DNA of 39,351 nt, taken from NCBI GenBank assembly GCA_002897655.1, contig BDTJ01000023.1, positions 1-39,351 on the forward strand. The letters run 5' to 3'. Numbering within the stretch: the stretch's first letter is position 1; every line of letters begins with the position of its first letter. Below the pieces are notes generated by a model, which did no database searches, was not told where the DNA came from, and saw only the letters and a program-made list of their open reading frames with translations. Made by a program: the position numbers and the translations under genes. Below are positions 22,747-30,871 of the stretch, one piece after another. This DNA is from an archaeon BMS3Abin17. GTDB taxonomy: Archaea; Nanobdellota; Nanobdellia; Pacearchaeales; GW2011-AR1.

Positions 22747-22762
22747 AATACATAGCGAATAA
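22747..22762. repeat. 16-bp direct repeat, right-hand boundary copy of the DGR (3' side)
   Basis: The 16-bp sequence AATACATAGCGAATAA occurs here, 4 bp past the reverse transcriptase stop codon, and again, identical and in the same orientation, at 25002-25017 upstream of the DGR target gene. The distance between copies is 2255 bp and everything between belongs to the DGR. Flanking bases differ beyond the 16 bp. Confidence 0.85.
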
Positions 22763-22766
22763 GAAA

Positions 22767-23222
22767 TTAAATTTTTATTTCTTTCTTAATTAACCCATCA
22801 ATCAGCTTATAACTATTAGCCCACTTAGCATAAGCTTGCCATCCTTGAAAAATCTCTAAAAACTTACTATAACTTATTTTTCCCTGATTAAACAATCTTA
22901 TTTTTCTTCTCATATTTCTGATATTCCTCCCCCTTAATAAATGATGGTAATAAAAATTTCTAAATCCGACAAAGTCTACTCCTCTTGAAAGAGAAATTAT
23001 TTTAGACTTATCTGGATGAAGCTCAAGTTTTAACCTTTCTTTAAGAAATTTGTTAATCTCTTTTTTCCAATATACTAATTTATCTTTAGAATTATGTAAA
23101 ATTACAAAATCATCAACATATCTAATATAATATTTTGCTTTTAATTTGTGTTTTGCAAAATAATCTAATTCATTTAAATAAACATTTGCAAAAAATTGTG
23201 AAGTTAAATTACCGAGAGGCAT
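22767..23222 (-). CDS. DGR reverse transcriptase, C-terminal part (catalytic half)
   Basis: This 151-residue frame begins MPLGNLTSQFFANVYLNELD. The LGNLTSQ segment matches the (I/L/V)GxxxSQ motif that marks DGR reverse transcriptases. YIRYVDDFVI follows, with the catalytic YVDD pair near residues 37-38, then the PDKSKI block and a thumb region ending WANSYKLIDGLIKKEIKI. It is the continuation of the ORF at 23233-23844 in another frame; the frame is open upstream through TNRRG to the (GA)9 tract. It is unlikely to act alone because motif A is in the other part. Confidence 0.85.
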   Translation of the reverse strand: MPLGNLTSQFFANVYLNELDYFAKHKLKAKYYIRYVDDFVILHNSKDKLVYWKKEINKFLKERLKLELHPDKSKIISLSRGVDFVGFRNFYYHHLLRGRNIRNMRRKIRLFNQGKISYSKFLEIFQGWQAYAKWANSYKLIDGLIKKEIKI

Positions 23223-23232
23223 GCCTCTTCTA

Positions 23233-23844
23233 TTAGTAGATTGGCTCGCGTCTCTCTCTCTCTCTCTCGGTTACGCCCTGAGAATTAAATAAGATTTGTT
23301 TAACCAACCAAATAGTTTTTTCATCTTTTATCCTGCTTTTTAGAATAGTCAAGAGAATATCATGATTAATATTTTGAAAATAATGCTTAATGTCTGCCTT
23401 TAAACAAAAACCTTTTATCTGGTTATTATTAAACCACCCATTTGTCTTTCCATTTCTTGAAACTTTTCTTTTAAATTTTTCAAATCTCTTTATTGCAAAC
23501 AAATTTCCTTTGCTTTTTCTGTTTGCACAGTTATCATAAATGAATGTTTTATCAAAGATGGGCTCAATTATATTGCATAAGGCATGGTGGACTATTCTGT
23601 CTCTAAAATCAGATTTTGAGATTTTACGAGTTTTAGGGTCTCTTAAAATAAATACCTTTAATGGTTTTGGCTTGTAAGTTTGATTTTTTAATTCGTCATG
23701 CAATATTTTCAGGTTATAAGCGAGATTTTCTTCAAACTCAATAACATAATCCTTCTTTGTTTTCCCTTTTCTTGCCTTTTTCCATGCAAGAATGAGGTTT
23801 TTCATTGAATATATATTCTGATAAATATCTTTGTAATTTTTCAT
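23233..23844 (-). CDS. DGR reverse transcriptase, N-terminal part (frameshifted)
   Basis: From the preferred ATG at 23844 (MKNYKDIYQNIYSMKNLILA) it encodes the fingers and motif A of a DGR-type reverse transcriptase: YKPKPLKVFILRDPKTRKIS, then DRIVHHALCNII, then CLKADIKHYFQNI with the motif A Asp at about residue 151. The frame is also open back to 23973, so the template repeat reads in frame ahead of it. It ends at a TAA (23233) after running out of frame in (GA)9, giving GVTERERERREPIY. One more GA unit, or two fewer, would join it to the C-terminal part as a single protein of about 360 residues, a normal length. The enzyme copies the template-repeat RNA with errors at adenines. It is broken as written. 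Confidence 0.85.
   Translation of the reverse strand: MKNYKDIYQNIYSMKNLILAWKKARKGKTKKDYVIEFEENLAYNLKILHDELKNQTYKPKPLKVFILRDPKTRKISKSDFRDRIVHHALCNIIEPIFDKTFIYDNCANRKSKGNLFAIKRFEKFKRKVSRNGKTNGWFNNNQIKGFCLKADIKHYFQNINHDILLTILKSRIKDEKTIWLVKQILFNSQGVTERERERREPIY
23251..23268 (-). repeat. (GA)9 microsatellite in the reverse transcriptase gene
   Basis: Eighteen bases of pure TC on the plus strand (GA on the coding strand) lie between reverse transcriptase motif A and the LGNLTSQ motif. Nine units put the downstream half out of frame; seven or ten units restore it, reading TERERDASQSTNRRGMPLGN across the tract. Dinucleotide runs of this length are classical sites of replication slippage. Confidence 0.9.
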
Positions 23845-23875
23845 TTTAGTGAAAAGTCCCTGGAGTAGGGCTATT

Positions 23876-23966
23876 CCAAAAGCATGGCCATCATCGTTGT
23901 CGTTCCAGTTGTTGCCATTAACATTCAACCTGTTGCCGAAGTTCCAGTTGTAGTTCAGGGCAGACA
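23876..23966 (-). repeat. DGR template repeat (TR)
   Basis: This 91-bp segment aligns without gaps to the variable repeat at 24268-24358 (offset 392). There are 13 mismatches, and every one is at an adenine of the minus (template-coding) strand: 8 or more A to G, the rest A to T or C. About 26 adenines are present. The codons are dominated by AAC and AAT, the codons that adenine mutagenesis can turn into the widest set of residues without making a stop. The segment between TGGCCATGCTTTTGG and the 3' end is unchanged in both copies, as expected for the site where copying or homing begins. The TR lies directly upstream of the reverse transcriptase gene. Confidence 0.95.
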
Positions 23967-24239
23967 GAGCCATGTAGCCAATTAATTAAAAGTAAATCAC
24001 CACCTTTTCAATATTCGCAATATTTCAGCTACTAATTGTCAAAGTTGAATTTTATGATTTGTTTCTGTATAAAAAACAAATACTATTAATTGGCGTGTAG
24101 TCCTTTTTTCTATTTTTCTTGCTCAAGGAAAAATAAAAACTCCAGGACAAAAAAGTAAAACAAGAGATACTTAAAAAACTTTGCTGCACAAGCGCAAAAG
24201 GAAAAATATTATTCAAACTTCTTGCCAGCGAGCCAAAGT
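23967..24239 (-). other. Intergenic region between DGR target gene and template repeat
   Basis: This 273-bp stretch has no convincing ORF, so no accessory Avd gene is seen here. It holds a bulged hairpin (24111-24134, TATTTTTCTTG against CAAGGAAAAATA) and a small stem (TTTGC/GCAAA, near 24178-24196 on the plus strand) followed on the minus strand by a T run. Either could end the target-gene transcript or mark the homing site. An AT-rich box near 24069-24077 (minus TTTTTTATAC) might start the TR/reverse transcriptase transcript. Confidence 0.45.
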
Positions 24240-24929
24240 CTATTTATCTTTTCTAGAAGTGCATACCCCAAAAGCATGGCCACCATCGTCGTCGTCCCAG
24301 TAGTCGCCATCAACATCCAACCAGTTGCCGAAGAGCCAGTCGTAGCCCAGGGCAGACATTCTTGTTTTTTCATCACTAACAGAATCAAAACTCCAAAGTT
24401 TAGGATTATTTTTGAATTTTGAAGCAATTTCTGCGATTTTTTGTGCTCCCTCTTCACCATATCTTGCAACAATATAAGGATTTTTTACTAATTCAATTTC
24501 TTTTTGTTCTCCTGTTTTATATCCAAATGAAACAAATTTCACTAAAGAGTCATTTTTCTGCAATCTTTTAATTAAGGATTCTTTATTCATATCTAATCTT
24601 CCATTCACTATTTTAGGGTTAGTTTCTAAAATAACTCCATTGTTTATCTCTTCATTTGATTTTGGAAGATAAAAGTTCCCAGTAAATTCCCAAAACAACC
24701 TGTCTTTTAGGATTTTAATTATTTTTGATTCATATTCTCCTTTTGGATTCTGAAAAGCATCATAAACTAAGGATGCTGTTTCTGCAGAATTTGGCCTATT
24801 TAATCCTTCTTTATCAATTTGCTCTGCAACATTTCCATATCTCCCTCTAAATACAGGATACTGAAAACTAATTTCTTTTCCTTCATGAGGGACTTCTGTT
24901 AAATATGATTTTCCTATTTTTGCTTTCAT
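24240..24929 (-). CDS. DGR-diversified target protein
   Basis: The 229-residue protein has no signal peptide or membrane helix, so it is predicted to be cytoplasmic. It begins MKAKIGKSYLTEVPHEGKEI and has an alpha-beta N-terminal part with no family that I recognise. The variable repeat covers about residues 191-221 (SALGYDWLFGNWLDVDGDYW to DDDDGGHAFG), just before the C-terminus. Its GDYWDDDDGGHAFG motif is like the C-type-lectin or formylglycine-generating-enzyme-like ends of many DGR targets. Compared with the template, eleven codons differ, mostly Asn to Asp, plus Asn to Gly, Leu and Tyr, Arg to Trp and Asp to Gly. It is first in the retroelement cassette and has its own TATA box. The ligand is unknown. 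Confidence 0.85.
   Translation of the reverse strand: MKAKIGKSYLTEVPHEGKEISFQYPVFRGRYGNVAEQIDKEGLNRPNSAETASLVYDAFQNPKGEYESKIIKILKDRLFWEFTGNFYLPKSNEEINNGVILETNPKIVNGRLDMNKESLIKRLQKNDSLVKFVSFGYKTGEQKEIELVKNPYIVARYGEEGAQKIAEIASKFKNNPKLWSFDSVSDEKTRMSALGYDWLFGNWLDVDGDYWDDDDGGHAFGVCTSRKDK
24268..24358 (-). repeat. DGR variable repeat (VR)
   Basis: The 91-bp variable copy lies at the 3' end of the target gene. It shares with the template repeat 78 of 91 bases, and all 13 differences fall at template adenines, which is the signature of DGR mutagenic retrohoming. It is read in the same frame as the template. The first and last bases of the aligned segment are identical, so the repeat borders are sharp. 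Confidence 0.95.
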
Positions 24930-24950
24930 GCAAATTCAAGAGATAAAGGG

Positions 24951-24993
24951 ATTTATAAATCTTTCTGTATGTTACTCTCAAGAAGAAGTAACA
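24951..24993 (-). promoter_or_regulatory. Target-gene promoter with an inverted repeat upstream
   Basis: On the minus strand ATTTATAAAT (24951-24960) is a strong TATA box about 26 bp before the target-gene ATG at 24929, so the mRNA is probably leaderless. Immediately upstream is a perfect 7-bp inverted repeat, TGTTACT (24970-24976) with AGTAACA (24987-24993), separated by 10 bp. Its position suits an operator or an activator site. Confidence 0.6.
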
Positions 24994-25001
24994 ACCTCCC
25001 T

Positions 25002-25017
25002 AATACATAGCGAATAA
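25002..25017. repeat. 16-bp direct repeat, left-hand boundary copy of the DGR (5' side)
   Basis: This is the second copy of AATACATAGCGAATAA, identical and in the same orientation as the one at 22747-22762. It lies upstream of the target-gene promoter and 26 bp from the end of the preceding membrane-protein gene. Together the copies frame the whole DGR cassette. Confidence 0.85.
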
Positions 25018-27724: not shown

Positions 27725-30700
27725 ATGCTAGAGAAGTTAGGTGAAGTATTAAGAAAAGCTACAAATAAAATAGCTAATGCTATATTTCTTGACAAAAATC
27801 TGGTCGATTCAATAGTAAGAGACTTGCAAAGGGCCCTAATTGAGGCAGATGTAAACATACACTTAATCAAGCAATTATCTGATAAAATAAAAAAAGCAGC
27901 TCTGGATGAAAGAATTAAAGGTATAGAGAAAAAAGAGCACATTATCAAGCTTCTTCATGATGAGCTTGTAAAGATTCTTGGAGAATACAAGCAGTTAAAA
28001 CTGAAAAAAGGTCAGAACAGAATCATGCTTTTTGGTTTATATGGCTGTGGTAAATGTGTCCATGGAAAAAGCAACATTCAATTAAGTGATGGAAACATAA
28101 TACGGGCTGAAAATCTCTATGAAGGATATGGTGGGAGATTTAATGAAGAAAATATTGAAGATGGAAAGATAATCGATATCTCAAATGAAAATTTATTTGT
28201 CCCTTCATTCAATCCTCAAACTCTAAAAATTGAAAATAAAAAAGCCACGCATTTGTGGAAATTAAAAAAAGAAGAATTAATAGAGATTAAATTAAACAAT
28301 GGAAATGATTATTCCATAAAAGTTACTCCTGAACACCCATTTTTTGTTCTTAGAAATGGGCAAGTAACCCAAATAAGGGCAGATGAAATAACTGAGGATG
28401 ATTTTATCTCTGTTCCAAATGAGATAGAAGTTAAAGGAAAATCAATAAATTTATTTGACAAGATAAAAAATCTAGACTTATATGTTTATCTAACTCCAAA
28501 AGAAGCAAAAGAGTGTATCTTAAAAAAATATAATAGACTAAAAGAAGCTCACGAAGATTTAAAATTCAAAAAAAATTATATTCAATTCACACAAGATATT
28601 AAAAAAGGGAAAATACCTATAGAATTATTAGAAAAGAGGGAACTTAATTTTCTAAGAATAAAAGGATATAATGACAAAACAGTAATTTCCTTACCATTAT
28701 TTTTAATTTCTGAATTTGCAGAATTTATCGGATATGTTATTGGGGATGGTTATATTAATAAAGGATATATAGAAATTACAACTGAAAATCCAGAAATAAT
28801 AAAGAGAATAATAGAACTCTCAAAAATTTTATTTAATCTAATTCCAACAATAACTAAAGACAAAAGAACAAAAAACCTTTATCAAATTAGACTTAATTCA
28901 AGAACTCTTGTAGAAATCTTTAAAATATTTAATTTAACTCCCGGAAGAAAAGGGAAAAAATTACAGGTTCCTAAGCAAATAATATGCTCTAACAATGAAG
29001 CGGTAAGATCTTTCATTAGGGCTTATTTTGATTGTGATTCTCACCCCACTAATAACAAAAGACAAATAGAATTAATCTCAGAAAGCCAAATTATAATACA
29101 GCAAATTAATTTATTATTAAGAAGATTTGGCATATTATCTACAATCTCAAAAAAAATTATTAATAAAATCCCTTACTGGAGATTATATATTAAAGCAAAA
29201 TATGCTGAGATTTACTCTGAGAAAATTGGTTATTTGATAAAAAGTAAGCAAGAAAAAGTAAGCAAATATAAACAAATAGGTGAAATTCAGGGGGCAGGAA
29301 ACCAAGATATGGTCCCTTTAGGCAATGCGCTAAAAGCATTGAGATTAATATTGGGATTTTCTATTGGAGAGATACAAGAAAATGCAGTTTATAGTTATGG
29401 AATATATGAACAAAAAGGATTTATCTCAAGAGGACAATTAAGAAAATTAATATTGTATTACAAACTGAGGAAAAAAGGATTCTTCTTGGATATTCTTGAA
29501 GATATTTCAGAGAATACCCTTTTAAGAGAGAAATATTCACATAATGTTATTAATGGTGTTTTAAAACATCTAAAAAATGAGGGATTTATAGAAATAGAAA
29601 ATAAACAGATAAATCTATCTCAAAGGGGAAAGCAGTATCTCCAAATGGTATGTAGAAGTGAACATAAAAATTTACTAAATACACTTGAATTTTTATCATT
29701 ATCAAATATCTGCTGGATTCCTGTAAAAGAAATCAATCAAATAAAAAATGATGAAGAATTTGTCTATGATCTTACTATAGAGGACAATCATAGCTTTATT
29801 GCTAATGGAATAATAGTTCATAATACAACAACAATAGCAAAATTAGGCAATTATTTCGCGAAAAGGGGAAACAAAGTTGCGCTTGTGGGACTTGATGTTC
29901 ATCGTCCTGCAGCAAAAGAGCAGTTAAAACAGCTTGCAGAGCAAAATAAGCTGAATTATTTTATAGAATTTGAAGAAGATGATGCTATAAAAACATGGAA
30001 AAACATAGAGCCAAAATTAAAAGAGTATAATGTGGTTTTGATAGACACAGCAGGACGTCATACTTTAGACAGAGAGTTAGTTCAGGAAATAAAAAGCCTG
30101 AGCAAATATGTAAAGCCAACAGAATCAATTCTGGTAATGCCTGCAGACATTGGCCAGGCAGCAAAAAAACAATCACAGGAATTCAAAGATACAGTAGATA
30201 TCTCTGGAGTTATAATTACAAGGATGGATTCAACTGCAAAAGGTGGTGGAGCGCTTACAGCATGTGGAGAGACAAAAGCAGGAGTTTATTTCATTGGAAC
30301 AGGTGAAAAAGTAAATGACATAGAAGAATTTAATCCAGAGTCCTTCCTCTCAAGGCTTCTTGGCATGGGTGATTTACAATCCTTAATTGAAAAAATAAAG
30401 TTAGTCACAGATGAAGATAGTCAAAAAGCAATGCAACAACGTCTTGAAGAAGGAAAACTATCTCTGGAAGATGTTGTTGAGCAGGTCAAGTCAATGGGCT
30501 CTCTTGGAGGTTTTGACAAGATAAAATCAATGATTCCAGGAATGAGTTCTGCAAAAATACCTGAAAACCTGATGGAAAACCAGCAGGAAAAAATCTCAAA
30601 ATGGGAGCATATAATAAAATCAATGACTCAAGAAGAAAAAAACAATCCAGAACTTCTAAAAGAAAAAAACACAGGAACTTCAAGGATAAACAGGATTGCA

Positions 30701-30871
30701 AAAGGCTCAGGTGTTAACAACAGCGATATTCGTTCTCTTCTAAAGCAGTATGACATGCTAAACAGCATGATTGGCTCAAGCTCGCAGTTTGACCCTGAAA
30801 AGCCAATGTCTCAAAAACAAATGATGAAGATGGCAAAGAAGTTTATGAAGGGAAAGAAATTCAAGTTCTAG
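27725..30871 (+). CDS. srp54: Signal recognition particle SRP54 with an intein
   Basis: The precursor is 1048 residues, and removing a 590-residue intein (residues 111-700) leaves a normal SRP54 of about 458. The host parts are an N domain (1-95), then GLYGCGK joined to TTTIAKLG to complete the P-loop GCGKTTT, GLDVHRPAAKEQL, VLIDTAGRH, TRMDSTAKGGGAL and the methionine-rich M domain from about 880 (SMIPGMSSAK, MSQKQMMKMAKKFMKGKKF). SRP54 binds signal sequences and SRP RNA and delivers ribosomes to FtsY, encoded close upstream. The intein splits the GTP-binding loop, so the protein cannot work until it is spliced. Confidence 0.97.
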   Translation: MLEKLGEVLRKATNKIANAIFLDKNLVDSIVRDLQRALIEADVNIHLIKQLSDKIKKAALDERIKGIEKKEHIIKLLHDELVKILGEYKQLKLKKGQNRIMLFGLYGCGKCVHGKSNIQLSDGNIIRAENLYEGYGGRFNEENIEDGKIIDISNENLFVPSFNPQTLKIENKKATHLWKLKKEELIEIKLNNGNDYSIKVTPEHPFFVLRNGQVTQIRADEITEDDFISVPNEIEVKGKSINLFDKIKNLDLYVYLTPKEAKECILKKYNRLKEAHEDLKFKKNYIQFTQDIKKGKIPIELLEKRELNFLRIKGYNDKTVISLPLFLISEFAEFIGYVIGDGYINKGYIEITTENPEIIKRIIELSKILFNLIPTITKDKRTKNLYQIRLNSRTLVEIFKIFNLTPGRKGKKLQVPKQIICSNNEAVRSFIRAYFDCDSHPTNNKRQIELISESQIIIQQINLLLRRFGILSTISKKIINKIPYWRLYIKAKYAEIYSEKIGYLIKSKQEKVSKYKQIGEIQGAGNQDMVPLGNALKALRLILGFSIGEIQENAVYSYGIYEQKGFISRGQLRKLILYYKLRKKGFFLDILEDISENTLLREKYSHNVINGVLKHLKNEGFIEIENKQINLSQRGKQYLQMVCRSEHKNLLNTLEFLSLSNICWIPVKEINQIKNDEEFVYDLTIEDNHSFIANGIIVHNTTTIAKLGNYFAKRGNKVALVGLDVHRPAAKEQLKQLAEQNKLNYFIEFEEDDAIKTWKNIEPKLKEYNVVLIDTAGRHTLDRELVQEIKSLSKYVKPTESILVMPADIGQAAKKQSQEFKDTVDISGVIITRMDSTAKGGGALTACGETKAGVYFIGTGEKVNDIEEFNPESFLSRLLGMGDLQSLIEKIKLVTDEDSQKAMQQRLEEGKLSLEDVVEQVKSMGSLGGFDKIKSMIPGMSSAKIPENLMENQQEKISKWEHIIKSMTQEEKNNPELLKEKNTGTSRINRIAKGSGVNNSDIRSLLKQYDMLNSMIGSSSQFDPEKPMSQKQMMKMAKKFMKGKKFKF
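28055..29824 (+). mobile_element. Intein with LAGLIDADG-type homing endonuclease in srp54
   Basis: The intein begins at Cys (CVHGKSNIQLSDGN, block A) and ends FIANGIIVHN, with Thr as the first extein residue. Block B is VTPEHPFFVLRNGQ. Two LAGLIDADG (DOD) motifs are visible, FIGYVIGDGYI and FIRAYFDCDSH, with conserved acidic residues in each, and block F reads EFVYDLTIEDNHSF. A helix-rich segment (GNALKALRLILGFSIGEIQE onward) follows the endonuclease. At 590 residues it is long for an intein. Splicing residues Cys1, the block B His, and the C-terminal His-Asn are all present, so it is probably active. Standard alignment was not done. Confidence 0.9.

Follow-up and report, generated by a model that had tools for sequence, protein, structure and literature searches.

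The closest described counterparts of the element reported here are the diversity-generating retroelements (DGRs) of the Bordetella phage BPP-1 and of Nanoarchaeota. In the latter the variable protein, AvpA, has a solved structure which displays a C-type lectin fold (PMC5006420). What starts and stops DGR mutagenesis has been raised as an open question (PMC12691664). Isolated cases of frameshifted DGR reverse transcriptases (RTs) are contained in DiGReF, where they are listed as inactivated (PMC3521204). Retroelements are not listed in a phase-variation review from 2025, which anticipates an extension of the subject to archaea (PMC11868660), and the open literature that we searched contained no mention of a slippage tract within the RT of a DGR. 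The present locus lies in a stretch of 39,351 nucleotides (hereafter the window; contig BDTJ01000023.1, assembly GCA_002897655.1) from archaeon BMS3Abin17. With a probability of roughly three in four we read it as a DGR with a phase-variable RT, that is, a contingency locus which switches the element on and off.

Both repeats of the element are on the minus strand, the template repeat (TR, 23872-23966) between the target gene and the RT, and the variable repeat (VR, 24264-24358) near the 3' end of the target gene. A reading made earlier from the sequence alone had aligned 91 bp of them without gaps (23876-23966 against 24268-24358) and had placed all 13 mismatches at template adenines, about 26 of which are available. 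Recomputation gave the same result (13 of 13 mismatches on 26 adenines; nine A>G, three A>T and one A>C), for which P is ~5e-9 if mismatches are placed at random over the 91 bp. The repeats were thus correctly located, but their 3' border had been drawn slightly short: the pair extends four bases further 3', adding two A>G changes, and the full 95-bp pair has 15 of 15 mismatches at 29 template adenines (P ~7e-10). The description of the TR as made mainly of AAC and AAT codons was too strong, AAY codons being frequent yet fewer than half. A search of the whole 1.09-Mb genome found no copy of the repeat other than these two. Since every TR/VR difference falls on an adenine and only two copies exist, a DGR is present, and the proposal of an archaeal DGR with adenine-directed variation is confirmed.

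The target gene (24240-24929, minus strand), for which a family alignment was also made, is an ORF of 229 codons, in which the VR specifies residues ~191 to near the C-terminus. That reading had regarded the protein, predicted to be cytoplasmic, as the less described part of the element, with no recognisable family at its N-terminus, and had suggested family searches and a structure prediction. By sequence the N-terminus indeed had no match in Pfam, in PHROGs or among PDB sequences. The structural model (mean pLDDT 92.4), on the other hand, had a single significant fold match, which is AvpA of Nanoarchaeota [PDB 5IOO; Foldseek E 3.1e-7, TM 0.57/0.62]. On the predicted structure, therefore, the target resembles AvpA, having a C-type lectin fold around a VR that lies near the C-terminus, and is a DGR variable protein of a kind already described. 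An NCBIfam match to FlgE was rejected as being at chance level (E 0.089, with 12 bits where the cut-off is 400). Homologs of the target are frequent in the order to which the window belongs; 12 of the closest have no RT inside the flanks of 1.5-5 kb that were examined.

The cassette occupies the interval 22747-25017, which is the span between two perfect copies of the 16-bp direct repeat AATACATAGCGAATAA, the repeats included (22747-22762 and 25002-25017, plus strand). The repeat occurs twice in the whole genome, at the two cassette ends. In a relative (genome G038, locus L189) the gene for a 129-residue membrane protein adjoins the ApgM gene, with neither a DGR nor the repeat; since these flanking genes are adjacent there, the cassette counts as an insertion when set against the G038 arrangement. 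The 16-bp repeat is possibly the footprint of that insertion. The idea that such repeats generally mark DGR mobility found no support, for among 41 other loci only one, in a genome of the same class (L174), has a long direct flanking repeat, which is exact over 48 bp; the others have 8-13 bp, which is the chance level. An Avd or other accessory gene is common in DGRs and not universal. The cassette has no room for an ORF of Avd size, and none lies in the space from the target to the genes on either side.

The RT is where the element departs from the expected anatomy. It had been described as lying next to the TR and carrying LGNLTSQ and YVDD; both motifs are present, but they belong to a gene whose frame is broken, a point which that reading had missed. 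In the assembled consensus the RT is spread over two minus-strand ORFs in different frames, 23233-23973 with palm motif A and 22767-23222 with YVDD, and family scans matched RT domains on both. Translation probably starts at the ATG at 23844, which lies inside the former ORF, the frame of which extends back into the TR. The upstream part (23269-23844; fingers and palm motif A) has a group II-type RT domain [PHROG RT, 3.7e-62], and the downstream part (22767-23222; MPLGNLTSQ, YVDD and thumb) is likewise RT-like [Pfam RVT_1, 1e-10; PHROG RT, 5.3e-52]. The split occurs at an uninterrupted (GA)9 tract (23251-23268, minus strand; frame offset +1) just ahead of MPLGNLTSQ, so placed that it separates palm motif A from YVDD. 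No other (GA)6 or longer exists in the 1.09-Mb genome.

The nature of this RT was assessed through an in-frame relative (L045), whose best PDB match is the DGR RT of BPP-1 [8ub7, sequence E 2.9e-44]. Its model (mean pLDDT 88.8) also has the 8ub7 fold (TM 0.86/0.90, E 2.7e-24), and the tract site falls in a low-confidence surface loop at residues ~175-192. Judged by this relative's sequence and model and by the LGNLTSQ motif, the enzyme beside the TR is an RT of the DGR clade. A single-protein search for a close viral relative of the window RT returned one distant match only. By arithmetic the two halves would be back in frame if the tract gained one GA unit or lost two, and the window copy, as assembled, would be of the class that we call OFF.

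We propose that the element operates in the following manner. Replication slippage in a slippage-prone tract, here (GA)9, situated in the RT surface loop which joins palm motif A to the half with MPLGNLTSQ and YVDD, would alter the number of tract units. One length class in three would place the halves in frame so that RT is made (ON), and mutagenic, adenine-directed copying of the TR into the VR could then proceed. With the other two length classes translation would stop soon past the tract, ahead of the catalytic YVDD (OFF), and the VR would be frozen. Tract length would thus change within populations, and it is the ON cells which would diversify their target.

RT relatives were gathered from the order, class and phylum of the window, and 149 distinct RTs of the class were compared. 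The genomes are mostly draft metagenome assemblies, one per species. In many of the relatives the open frame is only 160-200 residues long and starts at the MPLGNLTSQ motif, while in others it has 340 residues or more. A run of G (6-18), (GA)4-27 or, in one case, C11 was found in the same loop in 66 of the 149 RTs, and in 65 of these 66 it is the coding strand that carries the purines. RTs with a tract are most frequent in the window's order (55/103 RTs, against 11/46 in the other orders of the class). On the RT tree the trait is scattered, with no fewer than 33 changes, 11 or more of which are required by the starred branches alone. When a long tract is defined as G>=8 or (GA)>=5, the RT genes hold 50 of them in 8 kb of loop, none in 65 kb of upstream half and four in 60 kb of downstream half.

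The frame of the gene varies with the tract. The RTs without one have frame offsets 0/1/2 in 81/0/2 cases (81/83 in frame) and those with a short tract in 15/1/0 (15/16 in frame), whereas with a long tract the numbers become 9/16/25 (Fisher p ~5e-23, no tract against long tract). All 42 OFF RTs which have a tract can be read without a stop in the upstream frame as far as the tract and in the downstream frame from there on, a state found for the two wrong frames in only 22 and 29 of the 42. It follows that the tract alone separates the RT halves, and in each of the 42 copies the frame is restorable through tract length alone. The long-tract frames are unequal when counted as 8/11/24 (p 0.006) and their ON share of 9/50 is below the one third expected (p 0.024), related copies not being independent in either comparison; selection or some other mechanism may add to random switching.

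With one genome per species, no two RT copies were found which differ only by tract length, the closest pair having 88% DNA identity. One genome (G073) does possess two RT copies of 82% identity, one with G8 (OFF) and the other with G9, in frame at the tract and stopping further on. This pair is suggestive only as a sign of tract-length switching. Among 65 viral DGR RTs from IMG/VR viral contigs there was no G or GA run in the loop, one had (TC)4 there, and all were in frame.

Several further observations were made on these tracts. A second tract site, in the RT loop just after YVDD, is seen in L309 (position 1188), L310 (2048) and L311 (598), all three of which are frame-broken. The RT with the C11 loop tract (L120) also has an insertion of ~1.3 kb near the thumb. 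On the 3' side of the loop tracts at many loci, CGAACG or CGAAGC comes next to poly-G, and CGCGGA or CGCGAG next to (GA)n, far above expectation for AT-rich genomes. The CGAA motif after poly-G was considered as an RT-specific element and dismissed, as GGGGGGCGAA is not confined to RTs and is found, for example, in a repeated leader of the window's own genome. This leader is present in four copies on contigs C24 and C38 (L358 at ~1500 and 3449, L359 at ~1485 and 3762), in each of which CGAAGGCCTCTGGCGTC comes directly after G8 or G9; two of the copies lead into long ORFs whose start resembles a signal peptide, and two do not. They are possibly further slippage loci, at genes for surface proteins. 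Elsewhere in the window an SRP54-like GTPase ORF (27725-30871, 1048 aa) is interrupted by an apparent intein, recognized by eye in the translation from a LAGLIDADG-like segment and a C-terminal HN followed by T.

Could the frame breaks be ordinary decay, the product of chance repeat expansion in an unconstrained loop of broken, dying elements? The loop is variable and modelled with low confidence, and frameshift-dead RTs have been reported as isolated cases (PMC3521204), but we consider decay improbable. All of the OFF copies with a tract can be restored by tract length and the catalytic residues are kept, YxDD being retained in 41 of 42. Other lesions are not in surplus (stop codons elsewhere in the RT in 4/36 OFF and 11/94 ON copies), and the long tracts are hugely concentrated at one site at which they recur independently. 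Mismatches at TR positions other than A number 21/1577 in OFF and 40/3414 in ON elements (p 0.45), and changed TR adenines 444/726 and 805/1517, respectively. As the repeats of OFF elements are as clean and as adenine-changed as those of ON elements, the OFF elements are unlikely to have been dead for long. An incorrect repeat length, introduced in sequencing or assembly, would also give apparent frame breaks, and most of these assemblies are indeed draft metagenomes in which homopolymers are prone to error. Such an origin is more doubtful still. A one-off error was rejected for the window given that tracts recur at one site in 66/149 RTs, and the (GA)n tracts, which are not homopolymers, are frame-broken as well (14/16). 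By our own count 55 genomes of the order contain 32 distinct G9 tracts, and 9 of them lie within these RT genes. The G>=9 tracts in other coding sequences were read through in frame in 8 of 8 cases inspected, while the G/C>=9 tracts of the RT loop are out of frame in 25 of 31 and in frame in six (p 5e-5), a difference which argues against assembly error and is the best of the controls on it. Least probable of all is a split RT in which translation of the downstream half begins separately, at the conserved ATG of MPLGN, and the two polypeptides reassemble. An ATG at the motif does open the downstream ORF, but this Met is equally conserved in the in-frame RTs, and a split enzyme gives no reason for a repeat tract or for the existence of in-frame versions that carry one.

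Slippage might instead act during transcription (or translation), so that whatever the tract length a small part of the RT is made in frame, with the tract serving as an expression damper which maintains a low, constitutive level of enzyme. Similar traces would be expected from transcriptional slippage, which is in our opinion an unlikely explanation. It would accommodate the tolerance of all three frames, the openness of both halves and the freshness of the TR/VR, as well as the coding-strand purine in 65 of 66 tracts and the status of offset 2 as the most frequent class. Against it, RTs with no tract or a short one are in frame in 96 of 99 cases, so in-frame coding is favoured where slippage is low, and units as unlike as G, GA and C all serve. 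The existence of both +1 and -1 classes speaks against one programmed frameshift; a single programmed ribosomal frameshift is likewise not favoured, as offsets 0, 1 and 2 all occur. Nor is a stimulatory structure enriched downstream, for the 60 nt past the tract do not exceed controls in structure (p 0.16).

We return, then, to the phase-variable RT. The tract lies inside a coding region, all frames are represented and the gene is otherwise intact. Recurrent, variable tracts composed almost only of purines, in one permissive loop, in all frames, with open halves and in a fresh element, are the traces which would be expected of a contingency locus, and stochastic switching of the RT by slippage, and hence of target mutagenesis, is the most likely explanation. 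It is also likely, in our judgement, that the RT tracts which evolved repeatedly in this major archaeal lineage constitute a reversible hypermutator switch, by which clones would alternate between diversifying and freezing a ligand-binding repertoire. If this is true, a slippage switch is a direct genetic answer to the question of on/off control of DGRs in one large archaeal group, and contingency loci are extended both to archaea and to a hypermutator enzyme. The switch model also makes a simple prediction about tract length, which is readable in existing metagenome reads. DGR surveys which demand an intact RT ORF would miss a sizeable share of functional-looking archaeal DGRs.

Compared with known systems, the element shares with the DGR of phage BPP-1 (RT 8ub7, target Mtd) the sequence and fold of the RT, an adenine-directed TR/VR pair and the order target-TR-RT. 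It differs in its archaeal host and in having no Avd gene in the cassette, and the BPP-1 RT has no known repeat tract. With the DGRs of Nanoarchaeota (5IOO; PMC4372165, PMC5006420) it has in common an archaeal setting and an AvpA-like target of the C-type lectin fold; no phase-variable RT is described in those two papers as far as they were searched. The frameshifted RTs in DiGReF likewise combine a frameshift with intact TR/VR (PMC3521204). Those are isolated cases, whereas the break described here recurs, always at a slippage tract and at one and the same site. The contingency loci of Neisseria, Campylobacter and Helicobacter, with their poly-G or dinucleotide tracts, resemble the present locus in the coding-region position of the tract, the three frames and the otherwise intact gene. 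The difference is that here the gene switched would be the RT of an archaeal DGR, itself a hypermutator, in which we infer that tract length varies within the population.
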